From Alistipes sp. (lineage in GTDB: Bacteria > Bacteroidota > Bacteroidia > Bacteroidales > Rikenellaceae): DNA of 64,000 nt. Positions 10,753 through 44,872 of this stretch are shown piece by piece; the first letter of the stretch is position 1, and each line of letters opens with the position of its first letter. Location: contig JAFXFM010000002.1 in assembly GCA_017520545.1 (NCBI GenBank), positions 62,001-126,000 on the forward strand. Reading direction: 5' to 3'. The translations under genes and the position numbers were made by a program. The notes below the pieces were generated by a model, which was given only the letters and a program-made list of their open reading frames with translations, searched no databases and was not told where the DNA came from.

Positions 10753-11879
10753 ATGAAACGATTGGCTCAAATAGTGGCACTCGTTGTGGTTACACCCTTT
10801 CTCTCGTGTAGCAACAAGGATATTGCGCCCCGGACCGAGCCGATATATACCCCTCGCTACGCCAAGGGTTTTACGATTGAGCGCGACAAGACGAGCGGAG
10901 CGAAGTTTCTCGTTGTCAAAAATCCGTGGCAGGGGGCAGAAGGGGCTATTTTCTGCACAAAAATCGACACTCTCGCACCTCCGAAGCGCATTGTGGCGAT
11001 GTCGTCGAGCCACGCGGCGATGCTCGATGCCGTAGGCTGCACCGACCGTATTGTGGGACTGTCGGGCTGTCGTTACATCTATACGCCCACTATCCGTCAG
11101 GCTATTGCAGAGGGCAAAATTAGCGAGATTGGCTACGACTCCGCCTTCGACTTCGAAAAAATCAGCCTGCTCAACACCGACATTGTACTGCTGTATGGCG
11201 TTGCCGGTGAAGCAAAACAGATTACGAGCAAACTCGAAGAGCTCGCCATACCTTATATATATATAGGAGATTACATCGAATCGGAGCCATTAGGCAAGGC
11301 GGAGTGGTTAGTTGCCATCGCATCGCTTTGTGGCGAGGAGGAGCAGGGCAAAAAGCTCTTTGCTGAGATTGAGGCACGATACAACGCTCTGCGAGAGATG
11401 GTGAAAGGCTCGATCAAACGCCCTCGCGTAATGCTCAATCTGCCATATCGCGACACTTGGTTTATGCCTCCATACAACAGTTATATGGTGCGCCTTATCG
11501 AGGATGCGGGTGGAGAGTATATTTTAACGGAAAACGGAAAACGGAAAACGGAAAACGAAAAACGAAAAACGAAAATTCCTCAACAGCTATTTCGTTAGAG
11601 GAGGCGTTGGAGATGGCGTTGCAGTGCGACTACTGGATAAATCTCGGGCAGATAGCTTCGATGCGAGAGCTACAAGCCGTAGTACCCCATTTTGCCAAGG
11701 TAGATGCAGTGCGCAAGGGTCGCATATACAACAATACAAAACGTACAAACGAGAGTCGAGGTAGCGACTTTTGGGAGTCGGGAGCGGTACGTCCCGATAT
11801 TATCCTTGCAGATCTTGTGAAGATTCTGCACCACGACTACCCTACCGACTCGCTCTACTACTATAAAAAGATGGAGTAA
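10753..11879 (+). pseudogene. BtuF/FepB-like substrate-binding lipoprotein, frameshifted by a 7-bp repeat array
   Basis: Periplasmic-facing binding protein for a BtuCD/FecCD-class importer (cobalamin, heme or siderophore). A signal peptide ends in the lipobox FLSC. The fold region begins at IVAMSSSHAAMLDAVGC and GLSGCRYIY. The first frame runs from 10753 and ends at a stop at 11598 after a tail of ENGKRKT-type residues. The rest of the protein (NSSTAISLEEALEMALQ... to SLYYYKKME) continues in another frame and ends at 11879, where the TAA overlaps the ATG of the permease by 1 nt. The shift occurs in a 49-bp array of seven 7-bp units at 11526-11574. Five or eight units would restore one frame of about 375 codons. 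It may be a true pseudogene, a phase-variable gene or an assembly error. Confidence 0.8.
11526..11574. repeat. Intragenic heptamer array: 4 x AACGGAA + 3 x AACGAAA
   Basis: Seven exact head-to-tail 7-bp units inside the binding-protein gene. Because 7 is not a multiple of 3, gain or loss of units changes the frame. Read as protein, the array gives a seven-residue cycle TENGKRK without stop codons. Confidence 0.92.
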
Positions 11880-31526: not shown

Positions 31527-31541
31527 GCTTAGACGAAAGAA

Positions 31542-31590
31542 AACGGAAAACGGAAAGCGGAAAACGGAAAACGGAAAACAGAGAACAGAG
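31542..31590. repeat. Heptamer array between exporter genes
   Basis: Seven 7-bp units: AACGGAA, AACGGAA, AGCGGAA, AACGGAA, AACGGAA, AACAGAG, AACAGAG. Like the array in the binding-protein gene it totals 49 bp, but it is intergenic. A run of eight C then six A residues lies at 31637-31650. Confidence 0.88.
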
Positions 31591-31670
31591 AAACGGGAAA
31601 TTAAGAATTACTTTCATAAACTCTCTGTATTCATTACCCCCCCCAAAAAACATAATTGAATTTTAATTTT

Positions 31671-34543: not shown

Positions 34544-34617
34544 GTGGATGTAGCTCAGCTGGTTAGAGTTGCGGATTGTGGTTCCGAAGGTCGTGGGTTC
34601 GAATCCCATCTTCCACC
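34544..34617 (+). tRNA. tRNA-His (anticodon GTG)
   Basis: 74-nt cloverleaf with anticodon loop TTGTGGT (GTG), a G at the -1 position (34543) and discriminator C, the histidine identity pair. The acceptor has one T-T mismatch (positions 6-67) and the anticodon stem one G-A mismatch at its base. It has a strong promoter and terminator, so it is probably functional. Confidence 0.88.
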
Positions 34618-34640
34618 CGAACAGAACAAACGAAGCAAGG

Positions 34641-34666
34641 AGATGTCGCAAAGCGGCATCTTTTTG
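34641..34666 (+). terminator. Terminator of tRNA-His
   Basis: AGATGTCGC / GCGGCATCT around AAA, followed by TTTTGTTTTT. The same hairpin occurs inverted at 35052-35078. Confidence 0.85.
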
Positions 34667-34819
34667 TTTTTATACCTTTGGCGCAAACTTGTTTGCGGAC
34701 AAGAAGGTGTAAAGACAAAAGAGGTTGCATAGCAACTCCTTGCGGAGTGCAGTAAAGTTCGGAAGTGCCCCCGCGGCGAGCGGAGGGGAAAGACGAGCAG
34801 CACATCGCGCTACGAAGTC

Positions 34820-34870
34820 AATCCCATCTTCCACCCGAAGTTTGAAAGCCTTGCATCGCAAGGCTTTTTT
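34820..34870 (+). repeat. Second tRNA-His 3' end with its own terminator
   Basis: 20 bp (34820-34839) repeat the last 16 nt of tRNA-His plus CGAA. A different terminator hairpin follows, AAAGCCTTGC/GCAAGGCTTT with T run (34845-34870). Upstream the segment GTGCCC..GCGGCGAGC is shared with the unit before copy three. Confidence 0.85.
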
Positions 34871-35016
34871 ATTTGCATAGCCGCGGGAACTTGTTCACGA
34901 AAGGCTAGGCATAATAAAAAGTAGTGGCGCAGACACTTTCAAACTTCGAAAGTGCCCCTGCGGCGAGCAGAGGGGAAAGGCGTTAAGCGAAGCGAGCGTA
35001 AGCGAGCGGAGTAGCC

Positions 35017-35085
35017 AATCCCATCTTCCACCCGAACAAAACAAACGAAACAAAAGATGCCGCTTTGCGACATCTTTTGTTTTTT
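35017..35085 (+). repeat. Third tRNA-His 3' end with inverted terminator hairpin
   Basis: 35017-35038 repeat 34602-34623 and continue with ACAAACGAA as behind the true tRNA. The terminator AAAAGATGCCGC/GCGACATCTTTT (35052-35078) is the reverse complement of the first hairpin core. It also serves the SH3 lipoprotein gene that converges from the right. Confidence 0.85.
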
Positions 35086-38402: not shown

Positions 38403-39953
38403 ATGGAAAAAGAACAAAAATTTGGTAAGTTATTGGTCGATAACGGCGCAATTATTAAGCCTGCTTATAAATGGTGGGGGTTATTCCGCGACAAGGAAAA
38501 CGATGTAAGCATCGCTATCAACGACATTGATTACATCGACAAGGTTGAATTATCTTCACTCTTTGGCGCGAAGTGGGGCGTAGCCGTTATTGCCGGACAA
38601 CACAAAAACATCTATCAACCCAAGTTGTCTGCCGCTAATGCCGATAGGCTGGTCAATCTCCTTCTCGAAAATGGTGCGACGCAGGGCGAGCGCGAGTATA
38701 ACTATGCAGCAAAATCGAGCGGATTATTCAGCAAGGAGTGTGTAACTCTTTGCGAGGAGTATGGCAGAATGACAAAAAAGACATTTACACAAGAGGAGTA
38801 TAGAGCAGAGAGCGTTGATCTGTCGAAAGTTATCTTTGTTGATAAGGTGAAGAGCAAAGGCAAGCAGGGTCTTATCTTTGGCTCGGTGGCAGGTGGCGGT
38901 AGTGCCAATACCATCGAGATATTTGGTTTTTCGAAGGAGCTGAACGATAAGGTGTATAAGATGATTATAGACCAAAATCCTCAGTTGGAGGCAAAGCCCA
39001 TCAAAAGCTTCGAGTCGAATTTCCCGCTGTTCAACCCTTCGCGTTGGTTTAAGAGCCGCGAGAGTATCTCAATCGCAGATATTGGTCTGATACACAAGCA
39101 ATATGGCGTTAAAATCGAGGGCAAGAAGTACTCGGTGCGCACCTCGATTGTTCCATTCCATACCATAAAGAGTTATTGGGCAGAGGGATTTATCAGCAAA
39201 CGTATCGACATTCTCGGCAGCACCTCTATCAAATCTGCCGAAAATTACGGTCCGTGGGACACAAAGGAGATTTGGAACGAACTTAAACGTCGCAACATCA
39301 TCAATGAATATGGCGAGCGATTCAGGGCTCGACTATTCAGCCGCAGGGGACAGGGTGTGTTCTACGTCAATAAAGACGGTGTTACGTTCAAAAAGAAGAA
39401 GGAGTTGCTTATGCTCCCATTCTACTCCATTTACTCGGCTACATTCGAGAAGCCTTGGTATAAACTCTTCGGTACTGCGACTGTTAAAGGACGCCGTGTA
39501 GATGCCCGTGCAGGCGAGGGTGGCGATATCGAAATGGTTGTGGAGAAGATGTGGCGCAAGAGTGGTAAGCGTTTGATGGCGATGATTGAGAGCGGACGTG
39601 CTACGGCAAAGAGACCCGATTTCGATTACCCACAACACCAAACAACAACACCAAACAAGAGTGCAGACGTTAAGGAGCCAACTCCGAAGGTTGAAGCAAA
39701 GAGCGATGCCGAACCAAAGAAGAGCAATCCATTTGCTACAGAGTTGAAGTCAAAAATCGGGGGCGAAATGAGGTCAAAACTCGGTGGTGAGATGAAATCC
39801 GAGATTGACAACACACTTAAATCCGAGATTGGCGACGAAATGAAATCTGAGGTTAAGGGTATATTTGGCAAAACGCTTGGTGGTGTGCTGGGCGGTGCGT
39901 TGGGCGACAAGAGTTCTGGTCTTAAAGATCTTGGCTCAAAGTTCAAGAAATAG
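38403..39953 (+). CDS. Protein with repeated PH-like domains and an amphipathic C-terminal repeat
   Basis: A 516-residue protein without signal peptide or membrane helix. Three similar stretches look like bacterial PH-type domains: near residues 25-110 (WWGLFRDKENDVSIAINDIDYI), 140-210 and 215-400 (KKYSVRTSIVPFHTIKSYWAE; GVTFKKKKELLMLPFYSIYSATF). A low-complexity linker is followed by repeats of about 11 residues (ELKSKIGGEMR, KLGGEMKSEID, TLKSEIGDEMK) that would form an amphipathic helix, as in membrane-surface binding proteins. Function unknown; the domain call is an inference from strand pattern. Confidence 0.6.
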   Translation: MEKEQKFGKLLVDNGAIIKPAYKWWGLFRDKENDVSIAINDIDYIDKVELSSLFGAKWGVAVIAGQHKNIYQPKLSAANADRLVNLLLENGATQGEREYNYAAKSSGLFSKECVTLCEEYGRMTKKTFTQEEYRAESVDLSKVIFVDKVKSKGKQGLIFGSVAGGGSANTIEIFGFSKELNDKVYKMIIDQNPQLEAKPIKSFESNFPLFNPSRWFKSRESISIADIGLIHKQYGVKIEGKKYSVRTSIVPFHTIKSYWAEGFISKRIDILGSTSIKSAENYGPWDTKEIWNELKRRNIINEYGERFRARLFSRRGQGVFYVNKDGVTFKKKKELLMLPFYSIYSATFEKPWYKLFGTATVKGRRVDARAGEGGDIEMVVEKMWRKSGKRLMAMIESGRATAKRPDFDYPQHQTTTPNKSADVKEPTPKVEAKSDAEPKKSNPFATELKSKIGGEMRSKLGGEMKSEIDNTLKSEIGDEMKSEVKGIFGKTLGGVLGGALGDKSSGLKDLGSKFKK

Positions 39954-40026: not shown

Positions 40027-40060
40027 ATAGACAAAAAATAAGAGGGCGTTTCACAACGCC
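40027..40060 (-). terminator. Terminator of the hydrolase gene, built from a piece of the element A/B module
   Basis: GGCGTT-TCAC-AACGCC with TCTTATTTTTTG behind it on the minus strand. Bases 40027-40058 are identical to 41542-41573 in element A over 32 bp, so this is a truncated copy of the repeat used as a terminator. Confidence 0.75.
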
Positions 40061-41133: not shown

Positions 41134-41210
41134 ATATAAGCGAAATTTATGCCTGCATAAGAAAATAGAATTTGCACGAGATTGAAAAAATATCTGTATT
41201 CGCAGTAGCA
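41134..41210. repeat. Displaced copy of the rubrerythrin upstream region
   Basis: Matches 46487-46563, the promoter region of rubrerythrin, at about 67 of 77 positions by hand alignment. TTTG is kept (41171-41174), but the -7 element TATCTTCG has become TGTATTCG. No rubrerythrin coding sequence follows; the heptamers of element A start 6 bp later. Confidence 0.75.
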
Positions 41211-41215
41211 GTACC

Positions 41216-41619
41216 AACGGAAAACGGAAAGCGGAACCGACGCACGAAGCAAGAGCAGAGGGTGCTTGCACACTATGCCTTGCAAGAAGGAGGAAAAGCC
41301 TGCGCAGCAGGGTTAAAGCGGAAAACTTTTCCAACAACAACTTCTACTAACGACCTCCGCAGGTTTGAGCAGACCGAGAGAGGCTGTTGCAATCGCAGAT
41401 TGTTGGGTTTGGCAGATGGCGACTGAAAATTTATTTTCAAAGTCGCTTATCTGCCAAAAACAACTATTTGCGACAGCAAACAACAGCCGAAAGCAGACAA
41501 GTCTGCCACACCGCCACAGGTTGAAAGGAAAGGGGCTTGTCATAGACAAAAAATAAGAGGGCGTTTCACAACGACCTCTTACCTCGGGGCTAAAAGACAA
41601 GCCCCTTTACTAACCCAAA
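41216..41619. repeat. Element A: structured intergenic repeat
   Basis: Non-coding element of about 400 bp. In order: heptamers (AACGGAA, AACGGAA, AGCGGAA), GGAAAACTTTTCCAAC, TCTACTAACG, GAGCAGACCGAGAG, a long hairpin 41382-41488, the palindrome GCAGACAAGTCTGC (41493-41506), and a 98-bp module 41522-41619. The hairpin pairs GGCTGTTG with CAACAGCC, GGCAGAT with ATCTGCC, GCGACT with AGTCGC and GAAAAT with ATTTTC. The module pairs AAGGGGCTTGTC with GACAAGCCCCTT outside and TAAGAGG with CCTCTTA inside. No ORF of note. Confidence 0.82.
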
Positions 41620-41666
41620 GGTTGTAAACAATTAAAGATACACTACTTAAAAATTGCAAGATAACA

Positions 41667-41698
41667 TTTGTTATTTAGTGAATAAATTGCTATATTTG
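41667..41698 (+). promoter_or_regulatory. Strong promoter of the ncRNA candidate
   Basis: TTTG at 41667-41670 and TATATTTG at 41691-41698, 20 bp apart; no start codon with a sensible ORF follows. Confidence 0.72.
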
Positions 41699-41702
41699 TA
41701 CT

Positions 41703-42000
41703 ACCATTGCGGAATACGCAGTGTTTTAGATGGTATTTAGGGCTGTCGTGGATTTTGTTAATCAGTTAATAATTTTGCCTATGAAGCATAGCGTATAGTT
41801 GATACGCACATTTTAGACATATTGGAAAAGCGTTTTAGCTTTATTCTATCACTTCGGAAGTTTGGCGACTAAAAAAGGTAGATGGGAATAATAGTTGAAA
41901 TGCTCGCACTATTCGATGCGGGCTTTTAGTTATTCATCTACCTGGGTTACGCCAAACACCTCGAAGTGGGAATATAACTAATTGTCCCGCGCTTTTTTTG
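41703..42000 (+). ncRNA. Candidate structured non-coding RNA, about 300 nt
   Basis: Between a consensus promoter and a terminator-like end lies a stretch without ORFs and with many hairpins. First: TACCAT/ATGGTA enclosing TGCG/CGCA (41702-41735). Middle: GCGTAT/ATACGC. Main arm: TATTC/GAATA, CACTTCG (41850-41856)/CGAAGTG (41962-41968), GTTTGGCG (41860-41867)/CGCCAAAC (41950-41957), GGTAGATG (41877-41884)/CATCTACC (41935-41942), AATAA/TTATT, and apical GCTCGCA (41902-41908)/TGCGGGC (41917-41923). An alternative 3' hairpin GTGGGA/TCCCGC is followed by GCTTTTTTTG. The long interrupted rod recalls 6S RNA, but I cannot name the family. Bases 42001-42287 are AT-rich spacer before the next gene. Confidence 0.62.
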
Positions 42001-42287
42001 TGCGTATCTAAAAGTATTAATTGGACAACGGAGTAACCGAAAATCCGTAAGAGAGTAGGATTTTTTTTAGTGAGAAGTTAGTAAAATGAAGAAGGTTTTA
42101 ATTATCTACATTGTTAAATTCAGTATTTCAGCAGATTATAACGAATAACTATAAAAAAACGATTTGTAAATGCTTGTAATTCAAACGTCTGCAAATCGGT
42201 TCTTTGGCAGAATTGTGTTGAAAATAATTAGTCCAAACTTGCTTTAATTTAAACTTTTTACTATTTCTTTGCAAAAAACATACGCGT

Positions 42288-43820
42288 ATGAAAAAGATTA
42301 TTCTGGCCGTACTGGCTCTTTCAGCAGTACTTGTATCTTCCTGCTACAAAGACGGTGAAAGCGGATCCAATGCCTCCGTCAAATTCCGCAAAGCAAACAT
42401 TTCAGGAGCTCGAATGCTGGCTCTTGCCTCCAGTACCGGTGCCGCTACCAGGGCTGAAGGCGACATTACCGTCGGCCCCAAAGCCCTTTACACCGTGTCT
42501 GAAGATGGCTCCATGGTTGAAGTTAGCTATAATGTAGATGTAGAGGGAGCCGATGGAGAAGTAGCCGAAACCATCCGGGCGAACCTCATCATTTCTCCGG
42601 GCTTTGTGTTTCCTGTGGACGATGGATGGCTGTGGCTTGCCAACTGCCATTATGATGTTAAAGGCGGATGGAACAATTATCCTACGGACGGCAACAAGTC
42701 CGCGCGTAACGCCTTGTCCAAAATAATAAATGAATTCAGCGCCAAGTACCACGACCGTCACGGCGCCCATTACCTCATCCGCAAGAGCGACGGCGCCCTC
42801 TTCGAATGGACGCTGGAGGCCGGAGCTCCGGACGGGATGGACGACGGCTTCAAGCAGCCCACCTTCCTTAACGGCTGGTTCCACCAGCTGGGAAAGGACC
42901 TGTTTGTGAGGACCGGCGGCTGGAATTATGAAGGCATAAACGGAGGCCTTCCGTCACTTATCCGTCTGCAGGACAATGGCAACACGCTGGATGCGGTAAA
43001 CGTGCTGGGGGACAATATCTCCTGCTGGAAACTCTATCCTGCCGGAGGCTCTTGCCTGGGTGGGACTTTCGGTTATCCCGGAGCAATGGGAGGAATGCAT
43101 GGAATCATCGCCCCTCCTTCCTTCGAACCCGTGCTTCTCCAGGTGGAAGGGAGCAAAGAGTCTTTCCTCCTTTCCGTAGGCGGAAAGCTGTATTATGCAA
43201 ACACTTATCAGAAAGAAATCCAGGAGGGAGACGGCAAGGAGGGGTCTTGGACAAGGACCGAAGACTACACGGACTTCTACAATCTCACCGTTTCCGGAAG
43301 TTCAGTCTCACTTGGAAACCTCATCTGCACATTTAACGAGAGAATGGACCCGGGACAGGTTTATATCTCCACGACAGAAAAACTGACCTGGTGGGGAGGC
43401 AATGGATATGACGGGGCTATAATCCATATTTTCGATCCCAAGGCCGGAACCATTTCTTCAAGGGCGCTGCCGGAGCACTATCCCGGCAATGAGGGCGAAT
43501 ATGTAAATGGAGTTGCTTATGCCATCGACGGCACAGCCGGCTACTGGGAGTGCGACCTTTCCAAGGATGCGGCCGAATACGTGACGCTCGACTGGAGCAG
43601 CGCGGCGGAATATCAAAGCAAGATCGTGCCCGGGACCCTCCGTATGGAACGTTTCGAGGCGGCATCACTTACCCTTCAGTTCGTGGCCTATATGACCAAC
43701 GGCACGGAACTGAATTTCTATACCTCCGTGGTGGGCGCCGACCGCGGCAGGATCAAGACCTACGTCGGCAGCGACGGCAATGCAGGCATGGTGGTCACTA
43801 CTATGGTAAGACTGAACTAA
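42288..43820 (+). CDS. Lipoprotein of unknown function with foreign codon use
   Basis: A 510-residue lipoprotein (signal peptide to VSSC). The body has repeated W/Y/G-rich strands (DGWLWLANCHYDVKG, FVRTGGWNYEG, YYANTYQKEIQ, TTEKLTWWGG) about 50-60 residues apart, which suggests a beta propeller of the quinoprotein-like kind; this is an inference. Codon choice differs from all neighbours: GAA is used freely where neighbours use GAG, with many TCC, CCG, AGG and GGA codons and a higher GC content. It is flanked by AT-rich spacers inside the element A-element B interval. Signs of horizontal origin are strong; the function is unknown. Confidence 0.7.
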   Translation: MKKIILAVLALSAVLVSSCYKDGESGSNASVKFRKANISGARMLALASSTGAATRAEGDITVGPKALYTVSEDGSMVEVSYNVDVEGADGEVAETIRANLIISPGFVFPVDDGWLWLANCHYDVKGGWNNYPTDGNKSARNALSKIINEFSAKYHDRHGAHYLIRKSDGALFEWTLEAGAPDGMDDGFKQPTFLNGWFHQLGKDLFVRTGGWNYEGINGGLPSLIRLQDNGNTLDAVNVLGDNISCWKLYPAGGSCLGGTFGYPGAMGGMHGIIAPPSFEPVLLQVEGSKESFLLSVGGKLYYANTYQKEIQEGDGKEGSWTRTEDYTDFYNLTVSGSSVSLGNLICTFNERMDPGQVYISTTEKLTWWGGNGYDGAIIHIFDPKAGTISSRALPEHYPGNEGEYVNGVAYAIDGTAGYWECDLSKDAAEYVTLDWSSAAEYQSKIVPGTLRMERFEAASLTLQFVAYMTNGTELNFYTSVVGADRGRIKTYVGSDGNAGMVVTTMVRLN

Positions 43821-44216
43821 AGCAATCTTCATAGCACTTTCGCATATGAAAAAACGATTAATATATCACAGGTGTGCAATAAAATCACTTACCATAATAT
43901 AATAGCGTGTACAAAGTTAAATAATTTAACTAAATTCTCAAAGAGTTCTAAATAAATTCTCATTGTGCGAATAATTGTTTTGAAAATTCATATAAATTAT
44001 TGTGAGTTAATAACTGAGATTTAAAAACTCTGAATTTTAGTGTATAGCTGTGATATATTAATCAATTTTTCTCTTATGGAAAAAGGGCATATAACGCATA
44101 ATTAGCTAGCTTTATATATTCAATTAGTATTTTCCAGTTAATTAGGCGGCAGTCTCACGACTGTCGCCTACCTCAGGACTCATTGCAAGCAATAAATAAG
44201 AATGAACACCTATTTC
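43821..44216. other. AT-rich spacer after the foreign lipoprotein
   Basis: No ORF, tRNA or promoter that I can support. One hairpin, AGGCGGCAGTC/GACTGTCGCCT with loop TCAC (44144-44169), lacks a T run. The same TCAC loop recurs in the 40045-40060 terminator and in element A. Confidence 0.5.
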
Positions 44217-44580
44217 CTTTACTAACGACCGCAGGAGCGAGACCAACGGAAAACGGAAAGCGGAAAACGGAAAACTTTCCCAACCACCCCTCTACTAACG
44301 GCGGCAGAAGCCGAGAGCAGACCAAGAGGAGGGGCGGTGGTGCAAGACCGAAGGTCTGATGTGAAGAGATGATGCTGACGAGGAAATTTATTTACTTGGC
44401 AGTATCGGCTCTTTGCATCGTAATTGCAAAGCAATGCACCACCGACACACCACGCAGACAAGTCTGCCGAGGCGCAACAAGCTGAAAGGAAAGGGGCTTG
44501 TCATAGACAAAAAATAAGAGGGCGTTTCCCAACGACCTCTTACCTCGGGGCTAAAAGACAAGCCCCTTTACTAACCCAAA
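44217..44580. repeat. Element B: structured intergenic repeat, sister of element A
   Basis: Same order as element A: four heptamers (44245-44272), GGAAAACTTTCCCAAC, TCTACTAACG, GAGCAGACCAAGAG, long hairpin 44335-44444, GCAGACAAGTCTGC (44454-44467), then the 98-bp module 44483-44580, which differs from A at one base. The hairpin has a different sequence: CGGTGGTGC/GCACCACCG, GATGTGAAGAG/CTCTTTGCATC, GATGCTG/CAGTATC and CGAG/CTTG, with an AT-rich apex (AAATTTATTT) as in A. It begins with CTTTACTAACGACC, which resembles the end of the module. Confidence 0.82.
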
Positions 44581-44872
44581 CTTAAATAAATGAAGAAACC
44601 TCACTGCGGCGTGCAGTTTTCACCGCAGCTGTTAGATTGTTGTGCAATCTTTGTACCACAAACGCAGGTGGCAGTGTGGAAATTGTGCGAAAAGACCAAA
44701 ATTTTGACCTTCGCACCCAAATTGAACATCTCGTGCGAGATTTTTGCCAATTGTGTGCCAAACCGAACGAACTGCGACTGTCAGACAAGTCGGATACATT
44801 GGGCGTAAATGCAATGCAACCCCGAAAACGTAGTGTTTCCGAGGTCGCAGATTGTCGACTATACCGATAAGA
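44581..44872. other. Hairpin-rich non-coding stretch
   Basis: Between element B and the end of the SH3 gene. Short ORFs here look accidental. Visible hairpins are AGATTG/CAATCT (near 44635-44651), GTGCGAA/TTCGCAC (44686-44717) with an AAAATTTT apex, and ATCTCG/CGAGAT (near 44731). It may be a decayed relative of elements A and B, but the 98-bp module is missing. Confidence 0.4.

Follow-up and report, generated by a model that had tools for sequence, protein, structure and literature searches.

Integrative elements that target tRNA genes (integrative and conjugative elements or ICE, integrative and mobilizable elements or IME, and tycheposons) insert at the 3' ends of genes for tRNA or transfer-messenger RNA (tmRNA), leave direct copies of a core sequence, and can stack in tandem. 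Repetitive extragenic palindromes (REP) and bacterial interspersed mosaic elements (BIME), with the REP-associated tyrosine transposase (RAYT), and miniature inverted-repeat transposable elements (MITEs) are short, dispersed, palindromic, and extragenic. In the msr-msd region of a retron, a variable long hairpin lies beside constant sequence. Integron arrays can hold toxin-antitoxin genes, and the R-box core of their attC sites has the consensus GTTRRRY / RYYYAAC. To our knowledge, few DNA sites are conserved as a shape instead of as a sequence, and attC is the main bacterial example. In PMC2727003, attC sites are described as long imperfect hairpins that have little sequence conservation and are recognized by their structure; short core boxes are conserved at the hairpin base, and some bases are extrahelical. 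Here, we describe a folded element, M2, that occurs twice (elements A and B) in 64,000 nucleotides of an Alistipes sp. genome (assembly GCA_017520545.1, contig JAFXFM010000002.1, positions 62,001 to 126,000 of the forward strand). We will term this whole stretch the window and give positions within it. In nearly all of the copies that we examined, M2 lies behind stable-RNA genes, and we tentatively favor, at slightly under an even chance, the view that it is a mobile, structure-recognized recombination or insertion site (or cassette) at the 3' ends of these genes, which works like attC but is not attC.

The initial annotation of the window had described A and B as carrying the same order of short motifs, a 98-bp module with one differing base, and, between these, long hairpins of unlike sequence that nevertheless pair over most of their length. 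Direct comparison bears out the module and the hairpins. The stretches at 41522-41619 and 44483-44580 have a single mismatch, and the hairpins at 41382-41488 (A) and 44335-44444 (B) have 86 of 107 and 84 of 110 nucleotides paired in their folds. Aligned to each other, the hairpins are identical at 72 of 110 positions (200 shuffles averaged 62 and never exceeded 69); that is, they are strongly diverged, yet slightly more similar than chance. Both elements also fold far more stably than dinucleotide shuffles (A, 41210-41640, z = −9.05; B, 44144-44590, z = −7.46; none of 100 shuffles folded as well in either case). The common motif order holds from TACTAACG onward but not upstream, where A has a heptamer array and a separate dispersed repeat (41229-41330) and B has a terminator remnant (44141-44194).

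On the evidence of sequence and fold, A and B are copies of one family of folded elements, M2. An M2 element is roughly 180-200 nt long. It has an outer stem, a second stem in which one base is unpaired, and a variable stem, and its four-way junction is made up of a long arm, AT-rich at the apex, and two short hairpins at the sides. We consider this anatomy to be solid. The copy in A (41344-41527, plus strand) matches our covariance model at 182.3 bits (E = 3e-48), as a member of the training alignment. Its variable hairpin and junction comprise the mini hairpin CAATC..GATTG, a long arm with the apex GAAAATTTATTTTC, and the mini hairpin TTTGC..GCAAA, and they include an inverted repeat (41387-41417 / 41449-41479). 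The corresponding parts of B are the mini hairpin GACCGAAGGTC, a long arm with the apex AAATTTATTT, and the mini hairpin ATTGCAAAGCAAT. The model was built from 23 copies, with A included and B excluded, and it matches B (44292-44488, plus strand) at 93.3 bits (E = 7.9e-24), so the hairpin of B is a true but distant relative of that of A.

The annotation's claim that pairing is kept while sequence changes could be put to a covariation test over related genomes, and it holds up. In the 23-copy alignment, 45 of 71 pairs have two-sided changes with pairing kept, and slid controls of the same alignment give only 18-27 pairs. There are 201 cells with two-sided changes, as compared to 69 expected from shuffles, and none of 500 shuffles reaches the observed value. 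(An earlier 12-copy alignment had given 25 of 42 pairs.) The model suggested for such a test recovers both A and B and the fold recurs across the genus, and selection on the shape of M2, or some other process that keeps the shape, is well supported by these comparisons.

The 98-bp module, in contrast, lies outside M2 and forms the terminator end of another, predicted small-RNA gene on the opposite strand, which we will term X. The idea that variable hairpin and constant module make up a single element is not supported: the constant part belongs to the X terminator, and 33 of the 55 X copies examined have no antisense M2 match within 200 bp. Beside B, X (44505-44660, minus strand; 160 bits, E = 1.5e-38, with this copy in the X model) begins with a sigma54-like GG-N10-GC motif (approximately 44642-44660), followed by a hairpin that covaries, some 29 nt of conserved sequence (GTTTCTTCATTTATTTAAGTTTGGGTTAG), and a terminator. 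The module in B overlaps the 3' part of X and this terminator, which is enclosed by inverted arms (44487-44502 / 44557-44572, together 44487-44572; 94% complementary in a repeat search). Beside A is a degenerate second copy of X (41544-41705, minus strand; 70.6 bits, E = 5.1e-16) with a diverged 5' half and an intact terminator, enclosed by similar arms (41526-41541 / 41596-41611, together 41526-41611; also 94% complementary). The remnant upstream of B (44141-44194, minus strand) is of the X-terminator type (a partial model match, 26.3 bits, E = 8.1e-5), and we read it as an older array unit.

X, which is matched in 51 of the 55 genomes that represent the genus and has a sigma54-like motif in front, is itself a candidate for a new regulator. 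(One of the 51 matches is weak: G068, E = 8.3e-4. We label the genomes compared with G and the loci with L.) Only 1 of 36 genomes from outside the genus had a match (E = 1.7e-4). The motif, which was recognized by alignment, stands on the same strand as the conserved RNA structure and the terminator, and a sigma54 gene was found in all of the genomes searched for it (the genome of the window and five congeners). Across 12 copies of X, 99.6% of cells pair and 16 of 21 pairs have two-sided changes; the helices have 37 G-U cells and 1 non-standard cell, but the structure was derived on the X strand and is biased to G-U. Among the best 55 of 73 matches to X, 22, spread over 20 genomes, lie no more than 200 bp from an antisense M2, and one more has a sense M2. 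When 20 X loci that lacked M2 nearby in the genome search were searched again, two weak M2 matches appeared; most stayed without M2, and therefore X can stand alone. A peptide-like reading of the minus strand (..SNSCGENCTPQ) exists in some copies, but we treat X as RNA because the frame shifts in L032 where the hairpin covaries. An invariant region of X is complementary to AAACTTAAATAAATGAAGAAAC, an MKK-type gene start. As a search of 918 kb of partly overlapping DNA that allowed up to 3 mismatches gave no further complementary site, we do not propose that X is antisense to such gene starts and we claim no target for it. The exact 29-nt stretch also occurs in a viral contig (IMGVR_UViG_3300032167_000198; L264), with no clear sigma54-like motif in front of it by eye, and 32 nt of the X terminator module are repeated exactly at 40027-40058, just behind a gene that ends at 39953.

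Within the genome of the window, all 12 distinct M2 copies are antisense to, and 3' of, stable-RNA genes: eight are at tRNA genes, two at tmRNA, and two (A and B) at X. Seven of those at tRNA genes are 50-58 bp away, and one is 297 bp away. More broadly, we classified by hand, from match tables, 84 distinct M2 copies with flanking context. In 54 of these, a tRNA or tmRNA gene lies antisense with M2 44-351 bp 3' of it, and the spacing is 44-68 bp in 45 of the 54. Nine copies are at X, four are near contig ends, and 17 were classified as "other," one of which (L095) is a tRNA-Gly case with the tRNA 57 bp away. From a reading of the flanks of the remaining 16, we interpret 12 as having 3' sequence that resembles a tRNA or tmRNA, together with a terminator or an array arm and no intact gene, two as second units at X, and two (L307 and L319) as neither.

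Among 55 genomes of the genus, whose members are uncultured gut bacteria, M2 is found in at least 29, and it is found in none of 36 genomes from the order's other families. (These counts are lower bounds, because 29 candidates were scored per genome under strict filters.) G030 has 14 matches, G072 has 12, and the genome of the window has 13, one of which is A read on its reverse strand. The exact M2 end pattern was found in 17 named stretches, all of them from metagenome-assembled genomes (MAGs): ten are labeled Alistipes sp. and have a ruminant gut sample in the title, and the titles of the other seven, which are labeled Rikenellaceae bacterium, name no host. We reject a phage or plasmid origin, as A had no match in plasmids (where only A was searched), B had no match in phages (where only B was searched), and the exact end pattern was not found in viral contigs. 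Nor is M2 or X a known RNA family: neither had an Rfam match at gathering score, whether in the window itself or among the further loci scanned (14 and 16), and even with E up to 10, nothing matched the A and B elements (the only hit, DUF805b, is nearby and outside them). No open-licence paper describing M2 was found, judging by titles and the starts of abstracts. The annotation's suggestion of an undescribed non-coding system still stands, and M2 is apparently a folded DNA element without an earlier description.

By reading loci, we could define the order of a unit. On the strand of the tRNA, an intact tRNA gene is followed by a terminator hairpin, a stretch in which the 3' end of the tRNA is repeated in inverted orientation as far as the T-loop, the reverse complement of M2, and the T-loop core again. 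Units at X have the same order, with the core GTTAGTAG in place of GTTCGA. In other words, the near flank of M2 is an inverted copy of the target's 3' end, and the far flank is a direct copy of the core (GTTCGA for tRNA and tmRNA, GTTAGTAG for X). The inverted copies vary, from nearly perfect ones to others that have decayed strongly. M2 loci show the same kind of insertion as tRNA-targeting elements: the tRNA or tmRNA gene is preserved, and the core from its 3' end occurs twice. In two near relatives, G000 and G005, different tRNA genes bear full or partial copies of M2 (Glu, Leu-gag, Met, and Ser-cga among others). Three copies in G005 are cut on the side away from the tRNA; L172 and L160 have a near-perfect inverted arm, and that of L159 is more diverged. 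At several loci, the units stand in tandem, mostly 220-290 bp apart (459 bp in one), with no gene inside. Neighboring units may be near-identical (L215 and L216) or may have very different bodies within one locus-specific frame (L214 and L220).

A few loci do contain genes. In a tRNA-Leu array of G062, a HigB-like toxin gene, a helix-turn-helix (HTH) gene in the position of an antitoxin, and a gene for a BspA-type leucine-rich-repeat (LRR) protein lie between two M2 copies. In G068, the interval between two M2 copies encodes two small proteins that belong to no known family. In G006, an element that encodes DUF6291, a DarT-like protein, and two serine recombinases (L334, 8557-14272) starts beside an M2 pair, and in G028 (L324), a DUF6291 gene follows M2. 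At L041, L063, L219, and L313, related gene ends (such as ..YRTFIEDYLKIVEFIEWLKDFYPEKAAF) start at a TCGAAC core beside M2 units.

The window also contains a diverged M2-like insert in the sense orientation, which overlaps the end of tRNA-His and extends 3' of it (34597-34782, plus strand; 51.5 bits, E = 2.4e-12). In this region (34596-35040), further copies of the 3' end of tRNA-His (AATCCCATCTTCCACCCGAA) lie downstream. A terminator-like hairpin accompanies each of them, and this sense M2 is one of the inserts. Similar inserts lie behind tRNA-Pro, Ser-cga, and, in G005, Glu. Separately, at four tRNA flanks in the genome of the window (L104, L115, L117, and L120), terminators without M2 are extended to long palindromes in which the tRNA 3' end is copied in inverted form.

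If M2 is a recombination or insertion site, then a recombinase acting in trans might recognize folded or cruciform M2 DNA at the core. A unit (a new RNA 3' end, terminator, inverted arm, and M2) would be added behind the gene, which would stay intact, and units would pile up as arrays, in some cases with intervening genes. Elements A and B would each be a unit of this kind at an X locus, with a decayed copy of X in A. The bodies of M2, compared with locus labels assigned by hand and with no correction for the relatedness of the genomes, do not track the locus: the mean identity was 0.671 for the same locus in different genomes (115 pairs), 0.669 for different loci in one genome (145 pairs), 0.645 when both differed (955 pairs), and 0.783 within one locus of one genome (10 pairs). 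The mismatches in M2 helices (56 G-T, of which 16 come from one pair, and 53 A-C) offer a further clue. Among well-formed pairs, the G-T:A-C ratio was 26:20, as compared to 49:19 in a tRNA control, and this balance leans weakly towards a role as DNA. We are more doubtful about the stronger form of this proposal, in which M2 sites would be a new class of cassette: four-way-junction sites that are captured behind stable-RNA genes with the T-loop, a universally conserved part of tRNA, (or its small-RNA equivalent) as landing site, that exchange bodies between loci and form arrays able to hold toxin-antitoxin and other genes, and that depend on a recombinase unlike IntI. If it were true, then there would be an integron-like system that uses the cell's own tRNA genes as its platform. 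A second, independent system of conserved shape on tRNA, tmRNA, and small-RNA genes would illustrate how a single small element can land at many tRNA genes of a genome harmlessly, and M2 would offer a clear test of how a DNA fold is recognized.

Several observations weigh against a mobile, structure-recognized site. No recombinase is linked to M2, and nothing ties the serine recombinases of L334 to it. Tyrosine-recombinase matches bear no relation to M2, with 2-9 in nine M2-bearing genomes and 4-19 in eight M2-negative genomes. (There are 8 in the genome of the window, 9 in G001, and just 2 in G072, which has 12 M2 matches; one of those two is XerD-like, and host Xer recombinases were considered as possible movers of M2.) Neither an excised form nor a circle nor an active insertion was seen. 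Detailed examination covered a single array with clear intervening genes, and most arrays were read as having no gene between units. The 17 named records are MAGs, and several M2 copies are at contig ends. Finally, the body comparison carries the qualifications given with it, and the difference in mismatches between M2 and the tRNA control is not significant (P = 0.11, Fisher exact test).

The main ordinary rival is that M2 is the end of elements of the ICE, IME, or prophage type that integrate at tRNA and tmRNA 3' ends, so that the arrays would be stacked, decayed attachment sites. We consider this unlikely, but several points favor it: tRNA and tmRNA 3' ends are classic targets of integration, the T-loop core is left in direct copies, and an element with DUF6291 and two serine recombinases, or a DUF6291 gene, stands beside M2 in G006 and G028, respectively. 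Yet no common element or integrase lies beside M2 in the loci that we read, the tyrosine-recombinase counts do not follow M2, and there were no matches among the plasmids, phages, and viral contigs searched as described above. Moreover, the target X is not a tRNA, a single family at many tRNAs, each with its own 3' end, would be unusual for one integrase, and such strong conservation of a fold is not expected in decayed ends. It is less probable still that M2 is a transcribed structured RNA, with a regulatory or processing-related role, that converges on the stable-RNA genes and shares their terminators. The four-way junction and conserved internal loops have an RNA-like complexity, and the covariation is strong. 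Against this, neither strand of M2 has a clear excess of G-U, unlike the 37 G-U cells and 1 non-standard cell of X; no shared promoter was seen by eye in the flanks that we read (no promoter scan was made); M2 lies beyond the tRNA terminators; and M2 bodies swap between loci.

Two further explanations concern how the palindromes might arise. A terminator-ended RNA could prime itself and be reverse transcribed, which would give the inverted copy of the target, and the enzyme would then switch to an M2 RNA. This would account for the inverted copy and its end at the T-loop, for the copies in G005 that are cut on the far side (L172, L160, and L159), and for tRNA genes or X with an inverted arm yet no M2 (L104; L285). 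We nevertheless judge it very unlikely: reverse transcriptase is not conserved (it is found in 14 of 37 genomes of the genus, with one stop-interrupted match in the genome of the window and none in G005, a near relative that bears M2), and as cut copies were sought only behind tRNAs, the one-sided truncation is in part a sampling effect. More improbable than any of these is that M2 copies are functionless, neutral palindromes whose complementarity is kept by template switching. The extended palindromes at several tRNA terminators of the window's genome, even without M2, fit that idea, as do the direct Watson-Crick swaps with few G-T intermediates, but it does not explain why the constant frame and the two side hairpins are kept across the genus around very different bodies.

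Other repeats surround A and B. The repeat that is joined 5' of M2 in A, termed M1 (41229-41330, plus strand), lies outside M2. A search of the genome of the window with A (40 of 138 candidates scored) gave 47 matches, 42 of which were within positions 1-115 of the query. The M2 part recurs in other genomes of the genus. M1 is flanked by arrays of heptamers. In the window, tandem heptamers of the AACGGAA class are at 11526-11575, 31539-31600, 41216-41236, and 44245-44275, and other classes (AATGCAA, GTAGTTA, and CTAATGG) stand beside M1 elsewhere in the genome. The DUF805b RNA match, which is above the gathering score, is at 42028-42061 (plus strand), between A and the gene at 42288. The sequence just upstream of A (41135-41210) and a stretch upstream of the rubrerythrin gene (which is from 46488) match the same place in G005 (C9), which suggests a promoter region that may have been duplicated at a rearrangement. 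Also, on C68 of G005, stretches that are contiguous in the window (at 43892-43902) are separated by about 6.2 kb, with an 11-base overlap at the joint.

How, then, do these elements compare to the systems described at the outset? The 7-bp tandem arrays beside A and B resemble the heptamer intergenic repeats reported from Beggiatoaceae, Cyanobacteria, and some Bacteroidetes (PMC4679880). The heptamer there is TAACTGA, instead of the AACGGAA class of the window, and the arrays of the window are outside M2. The initial annotation had likened A and B to retrons and to attC. An M2 locus does resemble a retron msr-msd region in having a variable long hairpin beside constant sequence, but no msr-like part was identified, and the constant part is another gene (X). 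We reject a retron identity, given the patchy occurrence of reverse transcriptase in the genus; also, neither reverse transcriptase nor integrase was found among the 10 neighboring open reading frames (ORFs) of the window that were scanned against Pfam. Like REP/BIME sequences and MITEs, M2 is short, dispersed, palindromic, and extragenic. It differs from REP/BIME in its much larger fold and in its position behind stable-RNA genes, and an identity with REP/RAYT can be rejected because none of 23 genomes of the genus that were searched (the genome of the window and 22 others) contains a Y1 transposase, as compared to 12 of 14 genomes from other families.

M2 resembles the tRNA-targeting integrative elements in its targets, in the direct copies of the core, and in its tandem stacking. 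However, its units are a few hundred bases long, are mostly without genes, and have no consistent integrase. Furthermore, one family of M2 uses many tRNAs plus a small-RNA gene that is not a tRNA, and inverted copies of the target flank a conserved fold. The comparison with attC is the half of the annotation's analogy that remains apt. M2 is longer than attC (about 180-200 nt instead of 57-142 nt), has a four-way junction, and sits at the 3' ends of tRNA, tmRNA, and small-RNA genes, and its cores (GTTCGA.. and GTTAGTAG) depart from the R-box consensus at the 4th or 6th base. No integron integrase scored above the NCBIfam cut-off (TIGR02249, best score 166.3, cut-off 265) among 10 recombinases, which were all 8 PF00589 matches of the genome of the window plus one each from G072 and G005. 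As for genes between successive sites, one array has HigB-like, HTH, and LRR genes there, and most arrays that we read have none. M2, like attC, is a folded site whose structure is conserved while its sequence varies.

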